Assembly (NCBI GenBank): GCA_947627975.1
Contig: CANQYB010000009.1
Span: 1 to 42,011, forward strand
Source: an uncultured Bacilli bacterium
GTDB lineage: Bacteria > Bacillota_I > Bacilli_A > RF39 > UBA660
Direction of reading: 5' to 3'
Length of the DNA stretch: 42,011 nucleotides
Shown here: piece after piece, positions 1-15,708 of the stretch
How positions within the stretch are numbered: position 1 is the first letter of the stretch
Layout: the number at the start of each line of letters is the position of its first letter
Program-made: the position numbers and the translations under genes
Notes under the pieces: model-generated
What the model was told of the DNA's origin: nothing
Databases searched by the model: none
What the model saw: only the letters and a program-made list of their open reading frames with translations

Positions 1-723
1 AAAGAAACAAAAGAAAACCAAGATTATAATCAAGGATTAACAATCGAGGGAACAATAGGAATAAAAGAAAGTGGAAGCTATGAAGAAAAAGATAAAAGTA
101 TAGTAAGAGAAGGATTAGAACTATTATATAATAAAAGAAGTTTAGAAAATGCCGATGATACATTAATAGACAAATCAGGAAAAAGACATAATGGAAAAGT
201 AGTGGGAGCAACAAAAACAAGTGAAGGTCTTTCATTTGATGGGGGAAATAACGGTGTAATAATAGGTAAGCTTAATTATGATTATGTAACTTTGGAAACA
301 GAATTTGAATTTGATGCACCTAGAATTGTTGGATTTGTAATAAGTAACGTTCAAGCTGGTTATGCTGGATATGGAATTTCTGTAAATACTGACTTTGCAG
401 GTGGTGGAATATTTGGAGAGGGATATGCTGAATTTCAACAAATAGTAAAAGGATATGATTTTATAAAAGGCAAATATCATGTAGTAGAAACATGTGATGG
501 AATAAATATAAAAATATATGTAAATGGAAAACTTAAAGATCAAAAAACACTTTCTGGGCCTATAGCTTCATCAGCTAATTATTTAGCGTTAGGTTGTTTA
601 TCAGTAGATGGGGAAAATTGTACAACTCTAGCTTTTATTGGAACAATATCCAATGTAAAAGTATATAGTAGAGCATTATCAGAAGCTGAAGTACTAAAAA
701 ATTATAATGCTTTACAAAATTAA
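1..723 (+). CDS. LamG-like surface/secreted protein, copy A (5' end cut by window edge)
   Basis: Frame 1 is open from base 1 (KETKENQDYNQGLTIEGTIGIKESGSYEEKDKSIVREGLELLYNKRSLENADD...) and is near-identical to the same region of the 2226 and 3457 genes. Ends ...SNVKVYSRALSEAEVLKNYNALQN*, typical of a LamG/concanavalin-like domain end. The tracked GTG at 202 is internal. Confidence 0.85.
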   Translation, partial: KETKENQDYNQGLTIEGTIGIKESGSYEEKDKSIVREGLELLYNKRSLENADDTLIDKSGKRHNGKVVGATKTSEGLSFDGGNNGVIIGKLNYDYVTLETEFEFDAPRIVGFVISNVQAGYAGYGISVNTDFAGGGIFGEGYAEFQQIVKGYDFIKGKYHVVETCDGINIKIYVNGKLKDQKTLSGPIASSANYLALGCLSVDGENCTTLAFIGTISNVKVYSRALSEAEVLKNYNALQN

Positions 724-742
724 AAAATTTATCAACAAAAGC

Positions 743-773
743 TTGACTGGGGGGGGTAGTATTATTATATAAT
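743..773 (+). promoter_or_regulatory. Poly-G spacer promoter 1: TTGACT (743-748), G8 (749-756), TATAAT (768-773); 19-bp spacer (17 bp if TATATA at 766 is used)
   Basis: Direct reading; same module as at 2178 and 3409 but with one extra ATT/TTA triplet before the -10. Confidence 0.8.
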
Positions 774-797
774 ATTCATAAGAAGGGAGAAAAAAAA

Positions 798-2078
798 TTG
801 AAAAAAATATTATTTTTAATTGTTACAGTTATTGCATTAACAATAACACCTAATGTTTATGCGGCACAAACTGTGGATTGTTCAAATGAAACTGCTGAAG
901 CTAAAGTAGGATCTAGTTGCTATAAAACATTAAAAGAAGCAATAGAAAGTGTAACTGGTCAAAATAATACTGTAAGATTATTAAAGGATGTTTCTAATTA
1001 TACATTAACAATTTCTAAAGATCAAAACATTATTCTTGACTTAGGTACTCATAAATTGACTGCACCTACAAATAGCTGGGCAATTTATAATGAAGGAAAT
1101 TTAAATATTTTTAATGGAACTATAGTAGGATCTTCAAATTCAGCTGCAATTCGTAATAATGGAATTAAATTAACAGTTAAATCTGTGACAGTAGAATCAC
1201 CATATATTGCCATTATTAATAATGATGTGGTAGCTGAAAATAATGTTGAACAACAAAATCGAAAACCAGAATTAATTATAGAAGATTGTACTATTAAAGG
1301 ACCATTTAGTAGTTGTGGGTTACAATTAAGTGGTAAGGCAACTGTTAAAAATACTACATTTAATGCTAAAAAAGGAAATACCATAATTAAAGCTTTAGAT
1401 GGAAAAACTGATTCAGAAATTATTCTTGATAATTTATCTACTAATTATAGAGGAATTATTAGTGCTGGTAAAGATAGTACAAATGATGAACATAATATTA
1501 AGATTGAAATTAAAAATATTACTGATACTGCAAAAGAAAAAATGTTTTTATCTTCTGCAGGAGATGCAATAGTTGTTCCAGATAATTCTTATGTTAATGT
1601 TGCTTTACAATATGCACTTAGTGGGTCAACTATTATTATTCCTGAAGAATTTTATATGGATAATATTAAGGTAAAAGATGGTGTAAATATCCAACTTTCC
1701 GAAGAAAGTTTTAGCAATCAAATAATTGAAAAAAATGCTAATGGAACATACAATATTATTAAAAAAGCTGATTATTCAGAAATTAATAAATTAAAAAATG
1801 AAATAGATAACTTAAATAAAGATGATTTCACTAAAGAAACATGGGAAGCATTACAAAAGGTACTATCGACTATTGATTATAATAAAAGTATTAAGGAACA
1901 AGATGAAGTTAATAATATAGCTAAAGCACTTGAAAAAGCTATTAATAATTTAGTAAAAATAAATAAAAATAATATTAAAAATCCTAATACAAGTGATATA
2001 AATTTAATAATAACAATTAGTACAATTCTAATAAGTATAATTGGTGTATATTTTATTGTAAAAAAAAGATTTAATTAA
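798..2078 (+). CDS. Cell-wall-anchored surface protein: signal peptide, beta-helix-like region, FIVAR-like helical region, NPNTS-type sorting signal
   Basis: N-terminal MKKILFLIVTVIALTITPNVYAA signal peptide; TTG start after AAGAAGGGAG; C-terminal NPNTSD + hydrophobic segment + KKRFN. Confidence 0.75.
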   Translation: MKKILFLIVTVIALTITPNVYAAQTVDCSNETAEAKVGSSCYKTLKEAIESVTGQNNTVRLLKDVSNYTLTISKDQNIILDLGTHKLTAPTNSWAIYNEGNLNIFNGTIVGSSNSAAIRNNGIKLTVKSVTVESPYIAIINNDVVAENNVEQQNRKPELIIEDCTIKGPFSSCGLQLSGKATVKNTTFNAKKGNTIIKALDGKTDSEIILDNLSTNYRGIISAGKDSTNDEHNIKIEIKNITDTAKEKMFLSSAGDAIVVPDNSYVNVALQYALSGSTIIIPEEFYMDNIKVKDGVNIQLSEESFSNQIIEKNANGTYNIIKKADYSEINKLKNEIDNLNKDDFTKETWEALQKVLSTIDYNKSIKEQDEVNNIAKALEKAINNLVKINKNNIKNPNTSDINLIITISTILISIIGVYFIVKKRFN

Positions 2079-2103
2079 AAGATTTAATTAAATAAAATTT
2101 AAT

Positions 2104-2137
2104 AAAAACCTCTGTTTTTAGAAAAAAAGAGGTTTTT
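2104..2137 (+). terminator. Rho-independent terminator
   Basis: AAAAACCTCT (2104-2113) pairs with AGAGGTTTTT (2128-2137). Confidence 0.85.
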
Positions 2138-2177
2138 ATATGCTTAAATTTTTTATTAAAAACTTATGAACAATTTC

Positions 2178-2205
2178 TTGACTGGGGGGGGTAGTATTAT
2201 ATAAT
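2178..2205 (+). promoter_or_regulatory. Poly-G spacer promoter 2: TTGACT (2178-2183), G8 (2184-2191), TATAAT (2200-2205); 16-bp spacer
   Basis: Direct reading; followed by TTAAGAAGGTAAGAAAATG start region. Confidence 0.85.
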
Positions 2206-2225
2206 ACATTTAAGAAGGTAAGAAA

Positions 2226-3389
2226 ATGAAGAAAAAATATATAATATTAATAATTACAATGTGTCTAATAAGTATTTTAATAATTGGTTCATCTTATGCC
2301 TACTTTAGTGCAACAATAAATGGAAATACAAATGCAGAAAATGTAGTAACTAAAACCGGAACATTATCTTTAAGTTTTTCCGATAAAACACCTTCATTTA
2401 ACGTTACGGAAATAAGTCCTGGATGGAGCAAGACAAAAGAAGTAACAGTAGAAAATACTGGAAGTGTAGATGTGACATATGATTTAGTGTGGTTAAAACT
2501 TGATAATGAAATATTAAAAGATGAGTTAGTATACACAATAACATGTACAAGTGGATGTAAAGGCCTTACTGAAAGTAAAGTACCAGAAGCAGGAGAAAAC
2601 TTAGGAATAATAAAAGGGCAAACAATAAAAAGTAAAGAAACTCAAACATATAAAATAACTTTTCAATTAAAAGAAACAAAAGAAAATCAAGATTATAATC
2701 AAGGATTAACAATCGAGGGAACAATAGGAATAAAAGAAAGTGGAAGCTATGAAGAAAAAGATAAAAGTATAGTAAGAGAAGGATTAGAACTATTATATAA
2801 TAAAAGAAGTTTAGAAAATGCAAGTGATACATTAATAGACAAATCAGGAAATAGATATAATGGAAAAGTGGAAGGTGCAACAAAAACAAGTGAAGGACTA
2901 TCATTTGACGGGACAAATGATGCTGTAATAATTGATGAACTTAATTATGATTATGTAACAGTTGAGGCAGAATTTATTTCAAAAAATAATACAGATATTA
3001 GATACATAATCGCGAATATTGAAAGTGGTGGGTATTGTTTATTTTGGGGTAACGGACAAATTAGCTTCCAACCTTATGTTGGAGGATATAAAGGTAAGTA
3101 CGTAACAATTACTTCTAAAACTAAATATCATGTAGTTGGAACATATGATGGATTTGATACAAAAATATATATTAATGGAAAAGAACAAACATCAAGTTTA
3201 CATGTAACTGATACATTAACAAAAATTGGAAAACCAGGAAATAAAACTAAATTAGTTTTAGGATGTAATCCAAGTGGTTCAAATTGCACCGCTGGTTATT
3301 TTGATGGAATAATATCTAATGTAAAAGTATATAGTAGAGCATTATCTGAGGCTGAAGTATTAAAAAATTATAATGCTTTACAAAATTAA
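2226..3389 (+). CDS. SipW/TasA-type signal domain + LamG-like secreted protein, copy B
   Basis: MKKKYIILIITMCLISILIIGSSYAYFSATINGNTNAENVVTKTGTLSLSFSD... resembles SipW-dependent (TasA/camelysin-like) N-termini; C-terminal LamG-like domain. Confidence 0.8.
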   Translation: MKKKYIILIITMCLISILIIGSSYAYFSATINGNTNAENVVTKTGTLSLSFSDKTPSFNVTEISPGWSKTKEVTVENTGSVDVTYDLVWLKLDNEILKDELVYTITCTSGCKGLTESKVPEAGENLGIIKGQTIKSKETQTYKITFQLKETKENQDYNQGLTIEGTIGIKESGSYEEKDKSIVREGLELLYNKRSLENASDTLIDKSGNRYNGKVEGATKTSEGLSFDGTNDAVIIDELNYDYVTVEAEFISKNNTDIRYIIANIESGGYCLFWGNGQISFQPYVGGYKGKYVTITSKTKYHVVGTYDGFDTKIYINGKEQTSSLHVTDTLTKIGKPGNKTKLVLGCNPSGSNCTAGYFDGIISNVKVYSRALSEAEVLKNYNALQN

Positions 3390-3408
3390 AAAATTTATCA
3401 ACAAAAGC

Positions 3409-3436
3409 TTGACTGGGGGGGGTAGTATTATATAAT
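3409..3436 (+). promoter_or_regulatory. Poly-G spacer promoter 3: TTGACT (3409-3414), G8 (3415-3422), TATAAT (3431-3436); 16-bp spacer
   Basis: Direct reading; sequence from TTGACT to the downstream start codon identical to promoter 2. Confidence 0.85.
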
Positions 3437-3456
3437 ACATTTAAGAAGGTAAGAAA

Positions 3457-4635
3457 ATGAAGAAAAAATATATAATATTAATAATTACAATGTGTCTAAT
3501 AAGTATTTTAATAATTGGTTCATCTTATGCCTACTTTAGTGCAACAATAAGTGGAAATACAAATGCAGAAAATGTAGTAACTAAAACAGGAACATTATCT
3601 TTAAGTTTTTCCGATAAAACACCTTCATTTAACGCTACGGAAATAAGTCCTGGATGGAGTAAGACAAAAGAAGTAACAGTAGAAAATACTGGAAGTGTAG
3701 ATGTGACATATGATTTAGTGTGGTTAAAACTTGATAATGAAATATTAAAAGATGAGTTAGTATACACAATAACATGTACAAGTGGATGTAAAGGCCTTCC
3801 TGAAAGTAAAGTACCAGAAGCAGGAGAAAATTTAGGAATAATAAAAGGACAAACAATAAAAAGTAAAGAAATTCAAACATATACAATAACTTTTCAATTA
3901 AAAGAAACAAAAGAAAACCAAGATTATAATCAAGGATTAACAATCGAGGGAACAATAGGAATAAAAGAAAGTGAAAGCTATGAAGAAAAAGACAAAAGTA
4001 TAGTAAGAGAAGGATTAGAACTATTATATAATAAAAGAAGTTTAGAAAATGCCGATGATACATTAATAGACAAATCAGGAAATAGACATAATGGAAAGGT
4101 AATGGGTGCAACAAAAACAAGTGAAGGACTTTCATTTGATGGGACAAATGATGGTGTAATAATTGATGAACTTAATTATGATTATGTAACTTTGGAAACA
4201 GAATTTGAATTTGATACACCTAGAATTGCAGGGTATGTAATAAGTAACGTTCAAGTTGATTATGCCGCTGGAGCTGGATATGGAATTTCTGTAAATGATA
4301 GTTTTCTGGGTGGCGGAATAATTGGAGAGATACATACATATGGGGGCACTCAAGTTATAAATGGAAATGATTTTGAAAGTGGTAAATATCATGTAGTAGA
4401 AACATATGATGGAATAAATATAAAAATATATGTAAATGGAAAACTTAAAGATCAAAAAACACTTTCTGGCTCTATAATTCCATCAAATAATTATTTAGCG
4501 TTAGGTTGTATGTCAGAGGGTGTATTTACTTGTTCACGTTTATATTTTGATGGAATAATATCCAATGTAAAAGTATATAGTAGAGCATTATCTGAAGCTG
4601 AAGTATTAAAAAATTATAATGCTTTACAAAATTAA
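3457..4635 (+). CDS. SipW/TasA-type signal domain + LamG-like secreted protein, copy C
   Basis: N-terminal ~200 aa almost identical to copy B; central LamG region closer to copy A; C-terminus identical to both. Confidence 0.8.
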   Translation: MKKKYIILIITMCLISILIIGSSYAYFSATISGNTNAENVVTKTGTLSLSFSDKTPSFNATEISPGWSKTKEVTVENTGSVDVTYDLVWLKLDNEILKDELVYTITCTSGCKGLPESKVPEAGENLGIIKGQTIKSKEIQTYTITFQLKETKENQDYNQGLTIEGTIGIKESESYEEKDKSIVREGLELLYNKRSLENADDTLIDKSGNRHNGKVMGATKTSEGLSFDGTNDGVIIDELNYDYVTLETEFEFDTPRIAGYVISNVQVDYAAGAGYGISVNDSFLGGGIIGEIHTYGGTQVINGNDFESGKYHVVETYDGINIKIYVNGKLKDQKTLSGSIIPSNNYLALGCMSEGVFTCSRLYFDGIISNVKVYSRALSEAEVLKNYNALQN

Positions 4636-5835: not shown

Positions 5836-5940
5836 ATTATTATATATTATATTCATGTGAATAAATATTATAATAAAATTAATTCATTTTATTTAAATTT
5901 TATGTTAAAATATAATTATAAGAAAATAGGATGTGAAGTT

Positions 5941-7665
5941 ATGTCTAAAACAACATTTATATTAATTGCTACAACTTATTATTTTTTATCTATTGCCATA
6001 ATTATTTTAGTACTTAATTTAATAAAAAATTACATATTTAAAAAGTATGAAAAACAATTAAATAATTTAGAGAGAAATAAAAATTTAATTATTTCTGCTT
6101 CAATTTTATCTGAACTTAATAAAGTAGAAGCTTTGATAAATAATGATTCATTAAAAGAAACTTATGATAATTGGCAAAAAAGATTTAAAATTATAAAAGA
6201 TGAAGATGTACCTAAAATAACAGATTTATTATTAGAAGTAGAAGATAAATTTAAAGAAAATGATTATAAAAATTTGGATTCATTAATGGCTAAAGTAGAA
6301 TTACAAATTTATTATGTTAAAATGAAAGCAGATTTTTTATTAGAAGAAATTAGACAATTAACCCAAAGTGAAGAAAAAAATAGAGATACAGTTACTAGAT
6401 TAAAAACTAAATATCGTACAATTTTATTAAAATATAAAAATAACAAAGAAGATTACAAATTAATAGAAAATCCAGTTGAATTACAATTTGATAATATTAA
6501 TAAACTATTTTCTGCTTTTGAAGTTTCGATGGATAATAATAATTTTACTGAAATAGGAAAAATAGTAAAAGCTTTAGATGATAATATTGGTAACTTAGAA
6601 ATAATTATAGATGAAGCACCTAGTATAATTATTATGGGAAAAAATATTTTACCAAAAAAAGAAAAAGATATTTTAAATATTAAAAAAAGAATGATTAAAG
6701 AAGGATATCAACTTGATTATTTAAATATTGAATATAATATTGATGAATCAAATAAAAAAATTGCTGATATTTTTGATAGATTAAATGTTTTAAATGTTGA
6801 GGATTCAATTTTTGAACTAAAAACAATGTTAGATTATTTTGATGGATTGTATCATGATTTTGAAAAAGAAAGAGTTACTCGAAAATTATTTGAAGAATAT
6901 TCTCGTAGCTTAGGCATAAAAATAAATAAATTACTATCAACTGTCAAGGAATTATATAAATCAATTAAAGATATCAAATATTCATATGATTTATCTGAAG
7001 ACGATGTTGATGTTATAAAAAATATTAAAGAAGAATTAAATATTGCTAAAAATACTTACCAGCAAATTATTTCAATGCATAGAAATAAAACATTTCCATA
7101 TTCAAAACTTGCAAAAGAAATGGAACTTTTAAATGTTAAAATAACAAATTCAGAAGAAAAATTAGAAATTGCTTTAAGAACTTTAGGTCAATTAAAAGAA
7201 GATGAACTTAGGGCATATGAACAACTTGATGAAATAAAAGATATTTTAAGAAAATCAAAAAATAAAATGAATTCTTATAAATTGCCTATAATTCCTAAAA
7301 ATTATTATGTGCAATTAAAGGAAGCAAACGAAGCTATTAAAGAAATGGTAAAAGAATTAGAAAAGAAGCCAATTTCAATTAGAATATTAAATACTAGAGT
7401 AGATACTGCAAGAGATTTAGTATTAAAATTATATAATACTTCTAATGAAATAATAAAAACAGCAGCAATGGCTGAACTTGCTATAGTTTATGGTAATAGA
7501 TATCGTCCAATTAATAACGAAATTGATTTTGGACTATCAAAAGCAGAAGGAATGTTTTATAAAGGAAATTTTAAAAATGCTTTAGAAAATGCTATAAACA
7601 GTATTAATATTGTAGAACCAGATGCTTATAAAAAACTAATTGAGTCATATAAGACAGAATTATAA
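5941..7665 (+). CDS. ezrA: Septation ring formation regulator EzrA
   Basis: One N-terminal TM helix then long coiled coil; NWQKRFKIIKDEDVPKITDLLLEVED, YGNRYRPINNEID and C-terminal region EzrA-like; downstream of rpsD. Start reassigned from 5821 to the ATG at 5941. Confidence 0.85.
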   Translation: MSKTTFILIATTYYFLSIAIIILVLNLIKNYIFKKYEKQLNNLERNKNLIISASILSELNKVEALINNDSLKETYDNWQKRFKIIKDEDVPKITDLLLEVEDKFKENDYKNLDSLMAKVELQIYYVKMKADFLLEEIRQLTQSEEKNRDTVTRLKTKYRTILLKYKNNKEDYKLIENPVELQFDNINKLFSAFEVSMDNNNFTEIGKIVKALDDNIGNLEIIIDEAPSIIIMGKNILPKKEKDILNIKKRMIKEGYQLDYLNIEYNIDESNKKIADIFDRLNVLNVEDSIFELKTMLDYFDGLYHDFEKERVTRKLFEEYSRSLGIKINKLLSTVKELYKSIKDIKYSYDLSEDDVDVIKNIKEELNIAKNTYQQIISMHRNKTFPYSKLAKEMELLNVKITNSEEKLEIALRTLGQLKEDELRAYEQLDEIKDILRKSKNKMNSYKLPIIPKNYYVQLKEANEAIKEMVKELEKKPISIRILNTRVDTARDLVLKLYNTSNEIIKTAAMAELAIVYGNRYRPINNEIDFGLSKAEGMFYKGNFKNALENAINSINIVEPDAYKKLIESYKTEL

Positions 7666-13803: not shown

Positions 13804-15708
13804 ATGAAAAAATATGATGAAAGTTCGATAAAAATTTTAGAGGGACTAGAAGCAGTTAGAAAAAGACCCGGAATGTATATTGGTAGTACTGATAAAAGAG
13901 GATTACATCATATGGCTTGGGAAATTGTAGATAATGCTATGGATGAAGTAATAAATGGTTTTGGGAATAAAATAATTGTTACTTTAAATAAAGATAATTC
14001 TATTACTATTAAAGATAATGGTAGAGGTATACCAATTGGAATGCATGAATCAGGAAAGTCAACTCCAGAGGTAATATATACTATTTTACATGCTGGTGGT
14101 AAATTTACAAGTGATGGTTATAAAGTATCAGGGGGACTTCATGGAGTTGGAGCATCGGTTGTAAACGCTTTATCTTCCTATATGAAAGTTACTACTTATC
14201 ATGATGGAAAAATAGCAGAAATTGAGTTTGAAAATGGGGGAAAGGTTAAATCACCATTAAAAATTTTAGGTAATACTAATAAAACAGGAACTGAAGTTAC
14301 TTTTAAGGCTGATGAATCAATATTTAAAAACGCGAGATTTTCTTTTACAACTATTTGTGAAAGATTACAGGAATCTGCATTCTTAGTACCTATTTTAACA
14401 ATTGAAGTAAATGATATAGAAGATGATAAACATGAAATTTATCATTATGAAAAAGGTATTCATTCATTTGTAGAATATATTAATCAACATAAAACTACAT
14501 TAAATGATATTTTAACATTTAATGGTAAAAAAAATGATATAAATGTTGAAGTTTCTTTACAATATAATAATAGTTATAATGAAAGTATTTTATCTTTTGT
14601 AAATAATGTTCGAACTTCTGATGGTGGAACACACGAGGTTGGGTTTAAAACTGGAATTACAAAAGCTTTTAATGATTATGCTAAAAATAATAATTTAATT
14701 AAAACAAAAGATGGTTCTTTTGATGGAAGTGATATTAGAGAAGGATTAACAGCTGTAATTAGTTTAAAAATTCCAGAAAATTTATTGCAATTTGAAGGAC
14801 AAACAAAAGGAAAATTAGGAACACCTGAGGCAAGAAGTGTAGTTGAAAATATAGTTTATGATAATGTATCATTCTTTTTAGAAGAAAATAAAGAAATTGC
14901 TTTATCTATAATTGATAAAGCGTTTAAATCAAAAATGGCAAGAGAGGCGGCAAGAAAAGCTAGAGAAGAAGCTCGAAATGGAAAGTCCAAAAAAGCAATT
15001 GAAAAAAATTTATCAGGAAAACTTTCCCCAGCTCAATCAAAAAATCCCAAAATAAATGAATTATTTTTAGTTGAGGGTGATTCTGCAGGTGGCTCTGCTA
15101 AGGGGGGAAGAAATAGAAAATTTCAAGCTATCCTTCCTCTTAGAGGAAAAGTTTTGAATTCGCAAAAAGCTTCTATGTCCGAAATTTTAAAAAATGAAGA
15201 ATTGAATACAATGATTCATACTATTGGGGCTGGAGTTGGTTCAGATTTTGATGTTAAAGATTCTAATTATGATAAAGTTATCATTATGACAGATGCCGAT
15301 GTTGATGGAGCCCATATTCAAATATTATTACTTACATTTTTTTACAACTACATGAGAGGATTAATTGAAGCTGGAAAACTTTATTTAGCATTGCCACCAC
15401 TTTATAAAATTGATTATGGAAAAAAACATTTTTACGCTTATTCTGATGAAGAATTAGAAGAAATAAAAAGAAATAATAGTGGAAAATTTAGTGTTCAAAG
15501 ATATAAAGGTTTAGGAGAAATGAATCCAGATCAATTATGGGAAACTACAATGAATCCAGATACGAGAACATTAATTAGAATAAATATAAATGATGCAGCT
15601 TTAGCTGATAGAAGAGTTAATATTTTAATGGGAGATAAAGTAGAACCACGAAAAGAATGGATTAATGAAAATGTTGAATTTACATTAGAGGATGATTATA
15701 GAGGGTAG
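13804..15708 (+). CDS. parE: DNA topoisomerase IV subunit B
   Basis: GLEAVRKRPGMYIGSTD, GGLHGVGASVVNALS, VEGDSAGGSAKGGRNRKFQAILPLRGK; adjacent to parC. Confidence 0.95.
   Translation: MKKYDESSIKILEGLEAVRKRPGMYIGSTDKRGLHHMAWEIVDNAMDEVINGFGNKIIVTLNKDNSITIKDNGRGIPIGMHESGKSTPEVIYTILHAGGKFTSDGYKVSGGLHGVGASVVNALSSYMKVTTYHDGKIAEIEFENGGKVKSPLKILGNTNKTGTEVTFKADESIFKNARFSFTTICERLQESAFLVPILTIEVNDIEDDKHEIYHYEKGIHSFVEYINQHKTTLNDILTFNGKKNDINVEVSLQYNNSYNESILSFVNNVRTSDGGTHEVGFKTGITKAFNDYAKNNNLIKTKDGSFDGSDIREGLTAVISLKIPENLLQFEGQTKGKLGTPEARSVVENIVYDNVSFFLEENKEIALSIIDKAFKSKMAREAARKAREEARNGKSKKAIEKNLSGKLSPAQSKNPKINELFLVEGDSAGGSAKGGRNRKFQAILPLRGKVLNSQKASMSEILKNEELNTMIHTIGAGVGSDFDVKDSNYDKVIIMTDADVDGAHIQILLLTFFYNYMRGLIEAGKLYLALPPLYKIDYGKKHFYAYSDEELEEIKRNNSGKFSVQRYKGLGEMNPDQLWETTMNPDTRTLIRININDAALADRRVNILMGDKVEPRKEWINENVEFTLEDDYRG

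Follow-up and report, generated by a model that had tools for sequence, protein, structure and literature searches.

Close to the start of the 42,011-nucleotide stretch of DNA analysed here (the window), three successive genes each follow a promoter in which part of the spacer between the -35 and -10 hexamers is a run of eight guanines. The question raised by this locus is whether the G8 tract acts as a switch, with gain or loss of a G altering promoter spacing, or is a fixed part of the promoter. In the draft genome to which it belongs (G000; 1.06 Mb in 48 contigs), the window makes up contig C9; the host family consists of uncultured, probably gut-living bacteria. The original prediction, that of a phase-variation switch, placed TTGACT-G8-TAGTATTA sites at positions 743, 2178 and 3409, and the letters of the window agree exactly. 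The promoters and genes are arranged as follows.

1 to 723, plus strand: 3' part of one more gene paralogous to genes 2 and 3, truncated where the contig begins
729 to 737, plus strand: DnaA-box-like 9-mer TTATCAACA, 5 bp 5' of the -35 of promoter 1, a position fixed in 33/33 promoters of two species
743 to 773, plus strand: promoter 1, TTGACT - G8 - TAGTATTATTA - TATAAT, 19-bp spacer, with TATATA at 17
749 to 756, plus strand: G8 tract of promoter 1
798 to 2078, plus strand: gene 1, which starts at TTG and encodes a secreted protein of 426 aa whose C terminus carries an NPNTSD sorting signal and a membrane segment
2164 to 2172, plus strand: DnaA-box-like 9-mer TTATGAACA, 5 bp 5' of the -35 of promoter 2
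2178 to 2205, plus strand: promoter 2, TTGACT - G8 - TAGTATTA - TATAAT, 16-bp spacer
2184 to 2191, plus strand: G8 tract of promoter 2
2226 to 3389, plus strand: gene 2, encoding 387 aa with an N-terminus of camelysin type (PF12389) and a LamG-type (PF13385) domain
3395 to 3403, plus strand: DnaA-box-like 9-mer TTATCAACA, 5 bp 5' of the -35 of promoter 3
3409 to 3436, plus strand: promoter 3, TTGACT - G8 - TAGTATTA - TATAAT, 16-bp spacer
3415 to 3422, plus strand: G8 tract of promoter 3
3457 to 4635, plus strand: gene 3, 392 aa, a paralogue of gene 2

The three spacer lengths, and the alternative -10 hexamer of promoter 1, are those originally predicted. Between positions 1 and 4700 of the window, camelysin/LamG paralogues stand in tandem, along with long direct repeats; since this array is open at the contig start, it is probably longer than the visible part. 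A Pfam search with the gene 1 protein gave no matches. G8 runs had been described as very unlikely by chance, and a G7 is indeed expected 0.23 times in the window against 6 overlapping matches found; for the promoter 22-mer the number expected by chance, allowing as many as 3 mismatches, is 0.00. The window contains no further run of 7 or more, in keeping with the claim that its other promoters lack G8, and the next longest is a single G6 at 15102. The six promoters chosen for comparison in the original prediction all have 17-bp spacers as stated, four of them only by way of a degenerate -10 (TAATAT, TAAAAT, TAACAT and TATATT).

The proposal that such promoters form a family reiterated ahead of surface genes is supported, and the family is larger than had been thought. 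Searches covering 986 kb of the same genome (GC content 22.8%) found 14 poly-G promoters ending in TATAAT, one of which has a tract shortened to G5, and a fifteenth cut by a contig end. A sister species (G001), the only other genome of the genus that was compared, carries 19 such promoters and one divergent copy, TTGACGAT-G9; its copies match those of the MAG 'uncultured Bacilli bacterium isolate Lapin-026__bin106'. The 14 and 19 promoters together make up the set of 33 used below, which comprises 21 distinct cores attached to unrelated genes and in which the tract is G8 in 27, G9 in four, and G7 and G5 in one each. A search of six promoter loci against Rfam gave no known RNA elements.

The G tracts also stand out from the base composition of the genome. 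G/C runs of length 4, 5, 6, 7, 8 and 9 number 577, 104, 4, 1, 14 and 1, respectively, in the 986 kb, so that a normal fall-off to length 5 is followed by near-absence at 6 to 7 and a jump at 8; a third-order Markov genome has 0 to 2 runs of length 8 and about 20 of length 6. Long G runs are nearly confined to the promoter family: of the 16 that reach at least 7, it holds 14, made up of one G9 and 13 G8 with the cut copy counted. The remaining two lie in a single glycan-synthesis locus on contig C33 (L103, G000:C33): a G8 at 5893 to 5900 within an acyltransferase ORF (PF01757), which is open at the G8, and a G7 at 7381 to 7387 in a later gene's ribosome-binding site. These two are candidate coding and translational contingency tracts, respectively, and they count in favour of tuning by slippage.

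The drafts are fragmented, many copies of the promoter module are close to the end of a contig, and contig C6 (L104, G000:C6:1-8) stops exactly where the G8 tract of the fifteenth copy does, all of which could suggest an artefact of assembly or sequencing. Such an artefact can hardly account for the family: the module recurs in the assembly of a second species and in other genera, also inside long contigs, and with precise flanks. As an explanation for the presence of the module an artefact is refuted, though individual tract lengths could be off by one. An assembly fork at the end of contig C6 could stem from the repeated copies or from a polymorphism in tract length (G8/G9).

Alignment of the promoters on the -35 hexamer revealed an element overlooked in the original prediction, a DnaA-box-like 9-mer, TT-W-T-C-M-A-C-A, located exactly 5 bp 5' of the -35. 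Within it, all 33 promoters agree in having T at -13, T at -11, and A, C and A at -8 to -6. The pattern TTWTNMACA-N5-TTGAC has 15 matches in the 986 kb of the own genome and a G run follows in all 15, while the box/-35 pair does not occur in three Markov genomes; with a looser box pattern and TATAAT, 29/29 matches in the own genome and G001 carry a G run. In sequence this element is similar to the DnaA box TTATCCACA (PMC8287927). The dnaA-rpmH intergenic (oriC) region of the own genome contains TTATCAACA followed directly by TTTTCCACA, and also AACTTATCCACAAAAA, found again in the promoter at G000:C8:1048. A regulator probably binds the upstream box. The exact relaxed form TTWTNCACA is present in 4/15 own boxes and 12/19 sister boxes, which makes DnaA no more than a candidate for that regulator.

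A second feature overlooked originally is the rarity of 17-bp spacers among the poly-G promoters. Their spacers measure 13 or 15 to 19 bp, mostly 16 or 19, and are for the most part one or two bases off 17 bp. A 17-bp spacer is found in 2/33 poly-G promoters versus 40/91 ordinary TTGACW...TATAAT matches in both genomes (Fisher p = 3e-5; p = 2e-4 on distinct cores within 15 to 19 bp); the chance matches that the ordinary set includes should lower its peak at 17 and not produce it. In the 19-bp class, TATATA also stands at 17. The part of the spacer that follows the G tract varies from 7 to 11 bp. With G8 near-constant and the total not tuned to 17, the tract fits a recognised motif better than a ruler. 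This raises the principal alternative to switching, a fixed promoter of a surface-gene regulon in which box and G8 are elements of recognition or geometry, DnaA or another regulator acts on promoters that are deliberately non-optimal, and selection holds the tract at G8. The constant G8 beside a variable remainder speaks for it, as do the inseparability of box, -35 and G run within the genus and the recurrence of the same extended box at the oriC region; the incomplete agreement of the boxes with TTWTNCACA speaks against it. We regard this alternative as possible and worth serious weight, though probably not the correct one.

The genes downstream of the promoters encode mainly secreted proteins, and a minority are not obviously surface proteins. 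All five proteins found to have an NPNTSD sorting signal are served by a poly-G promoter, and one NPNTA protein lacks it; contig C21 encodes a sortase-like protein that has a TLITC motif. Among nine ORFs with an MKKKYIILII-type leader, one of them cut by a contig end, the promoter precedes seven, including the cut one. Other or uncertain targets include a P-type cation ATPase and, with less certainty because the names are partly a reading of the sequence, a GtrA-like membrane protein, a glycosyltransferase-like protein and a conserved 560-aa protein. In the 5' leaders of three G001 promoters (L024, L029 and L031) a palindrome, TTTCCTTA-gaaag-TAAGGAAA, surrounds the ribosome-binding site and is a possible translational hairpin.

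Poly-G spacers were also found in other genera. G018, from another genus (g18) of the same family, has nine G runs of 9 to 11 and none of length 7 or 8 in 400 kb, and all nine lie in promoter-like spacers 5' of secreted or anchored proteins. They occur in two layouts, TTGACN(n)-G9..11-TAGTTATnG-TATAAT and TTGACAAAAnGCTCT-G9..10 followed directly by a TA-rich -10, and the DnaA-like box is absent from both. In G185, a congener of G018, a G9 stands directly 5' of TATAAT ahead of a related secreted-protein gene. G131 (genus g128) has the box-containing layout with TTGACC and either G9 or GAGGAGGG, the latter being an interrupted tract found in two copies, and also a G8 copy with a weaker box; its targets belong to the homologous camelysin-type family. 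In the sampled stretches of 18 other genera the longest run was 6 or less. Poly-G in the spacers of surface genes thus recurs in at least three genera while its surroundings differ, which points to a function of the G run itself, and the G018 spacers, with G9 to G11 and no box, count against a fixed box-and-G8 regulon. Of the similar strings found elsewhere, those in Nitrospinota, those in other GC-rich genomes and all viral matches were rejected as unrelated on reading.

Whether the tract changes length can be judged in part from copies that are otherwise alike. Cores identical in all other respects differ by one G (G7/G8 before TAATATTACTA and G8/G9 before TCTATTA), similar G018 cores carry G9, G10 or G11, and a cupin-like ORF of G001 (L106, G001:C35, around position 5992) looks frameshifted at a G7 tract, with the other frame continuing domain-like sequence. 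Together these indicate that such tracts do change length, and the one-G differences argue against a promoter fixed by selection. Orthologous promoters, identified by their neighbouring genes, have equal tract lengths in three of four cases, including a G9/G9 pair (C14, C17), and differ in the fourth (G5 versus G8); proteins near these loci have a median identity of about 82% between the two species. The three conserved lengths favour a fixed regulon, and with the G8 in 27/33 promoters, the interruptions in G131 and the presence of mutS they stand against fast switching. The MutS protein is encoded in both genomes, and loss of mismatch repair was accordingly rejected as a cause. A constant tract in consensus genomes is compatible with slow switching, given the precedent of Bordetella fimX (PMC1891110). 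An invertible promoter was considered and rejected: the inverted repeats present amount to short A/T-rich or imperfect pairs and a single terminator-like hairpin, none of them convincing as flanking repeats.

On balance we consider it somewhat more likely than not that these are surface-gene promoters tuned by slippage, a reading that would work as follows. A single lineage-specific promoter of sigma-70 type would have been copied across the surface genes of a small-genome Bacilli lineage in the arrangement [TTWTCMACA box]-5 bp-[TTGACW]-[poly-G, usually G8]-[7-11 bp]-[TATAAT]-[RBS]-[surface gene]. Within the spacer, the run of G would be the adjustable part, and occasional replication slippage, which we infer to be frequent enough to matter, would add or remove one G. 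Each such change would shift the -10 relative to the box/-35 block, in distance as well as in helical phase, and tract length would in this way raise or lower transcription of that single gene. The upstream box, with its bound regulator (DnaA being the candidate), would set a shared level of expression. A further step, in which surface composition would be set jointly by replication status, acting through DnaA, and by inherited tract length, is unlikely on present evidence. The original prediction of phase variation is supported in part, by the reiterated surface-gene family, the near-confinement of G runs to it, the spacers mostly off 17 bp, the one-G differences between like cores and the longer, more variable runs of G018; its claim to novelty was overstated.

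The flanks of the window promoters show how copies have been exchanged. Over 60 bp upstream, promoter 3 is 97% identical to promoter 1, and downstream it is 100% identical to promoter 2, while the remaining flanks are unrelated (promoters 2 and 3 upstream, 33%; promoters 1 and 3 downstream, 45%). This mosaic marks the promoter as a junction at which neighbouring surface genes recombined or were duplicated. The own-genome orthologue of a module-bearing G001 gene (MGFIK...) lacks the G run, so modules have been gained or lost. The mosaic, the large direct repeats in the window and the many identical cores would also fit an ancestral promoter spread by gene duplication and gene conversion, the G run having no special role and being carried along. 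This explanation is very unlikely: it would have to cover 21 distinct cores before unrelated genes in two species and the poly-G of G018 in different architectures, and a neutral G8 would decay at a GC content of 22.8%.

Several module-bearing contigs of G001 (ends L076, L078, L079, L085 and L086) start with one of two repeats, which end approximately 32 to 55 bp 5' of the -35. On contig CANRKJ010000057.1 (L049), in the region 3228 to 3680, one such repeat adjoins a short ORF that is transposase-like and has an HTH_38 domain, possibly the end of an IS30-type element near the promoters. The same contig carries a promoter with box, TTGACA and G8 at 3690 to 3760; the contig is binned as Clostridia, comes from the same sample series, and may be misbinned or transferred DNA.

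If switching is true, Bacilli of reduced genome size would vary much of their coat through a single reiterated promoter, a kind of coat variation documented mainly in pathogens. If the motif is instead fixed at G8, it marks out a previously undescribed regulon, in which an unusual, conserved poly-G element stands beside a DnaA-box-like site. In either case, assemblies may conceal surface-gene diversity where contigs break, or homopolymers are miscalled, at these promoters.

A poly-G version of a spacer switch had been put forward as a new instance, which overstated its novelty, as precedents exist in porA, tp0126 (PMC7864442) and the Bordetella fim genes (PMC1891110). The system was also compared with the basal unwinding system of replication origins, with which it shares the DnaA-box-like 9-mer, the extended box at its own oriC and, in some copies, a G-rich stretch followed by TAG-type triplets. 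The present element is, unlike that system, a promoter ahead of genes and not an origin; identity with it was rejected, as the distance from box to triplet, 19 bp, exceeds the 16-bp limit (PMC8287927) and many cores lack triplets (e.g. TCTATTA).

In Neisseria meningitidis porA, as cited in PMC7864442, a poly-G tract lies between the -35 and -10 of a surface-protein gene, and the position is the same here, so that tract length sets the spacing. According to that citation porA is a single gene with demonstrated variation and an effect on expression, whereas here there is a family with near-constant G8 and a fixed box. Treponema pallidum tp0126 likewise has poly-G between -35 and -10, with transcription best at 17-bp spacing, and the tpr genes form a surface family with poly-G promoters, near some of which a CRP homologue binds (PMC7864442). 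Length variation was measured in T. pallidum; the spacers here are mostly 16 or 19 bp, and the companion site is DnaA-box-like. Further parallels are with Bordetella fim2, fim3, fimX and fimN, in which a conserved fim box and a C-stretch are repeated over a surface-gene family; the fimX tract is C7 in most strains, yet the transcript is 3.8-fold lower at C8, and interrupted tracts occur in relatives (PMC1891110). The present family shares the conserved upstream box with a homopolymer ahead of several surface-protein genes, the short and mostly fixed tracts, and the interrupted tracts in relatives; it differs in having G in place of C on the coding strand. As in systems of the porA, tp0126 and fim type, a homopolymer lies between -35 and -10 in 33 promoters of two species, and again in G018 and G131, and the targets are mainly surface-exposed or secreted. 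On the likeliest reading the poly-G spacer would work as in porA, tp0126 and fim, with a fixed regulon motif as the main rival; what is new is the lineage, the reiteration over much of the surface-protein set and the tie to a fixed DnaA-box-like element.
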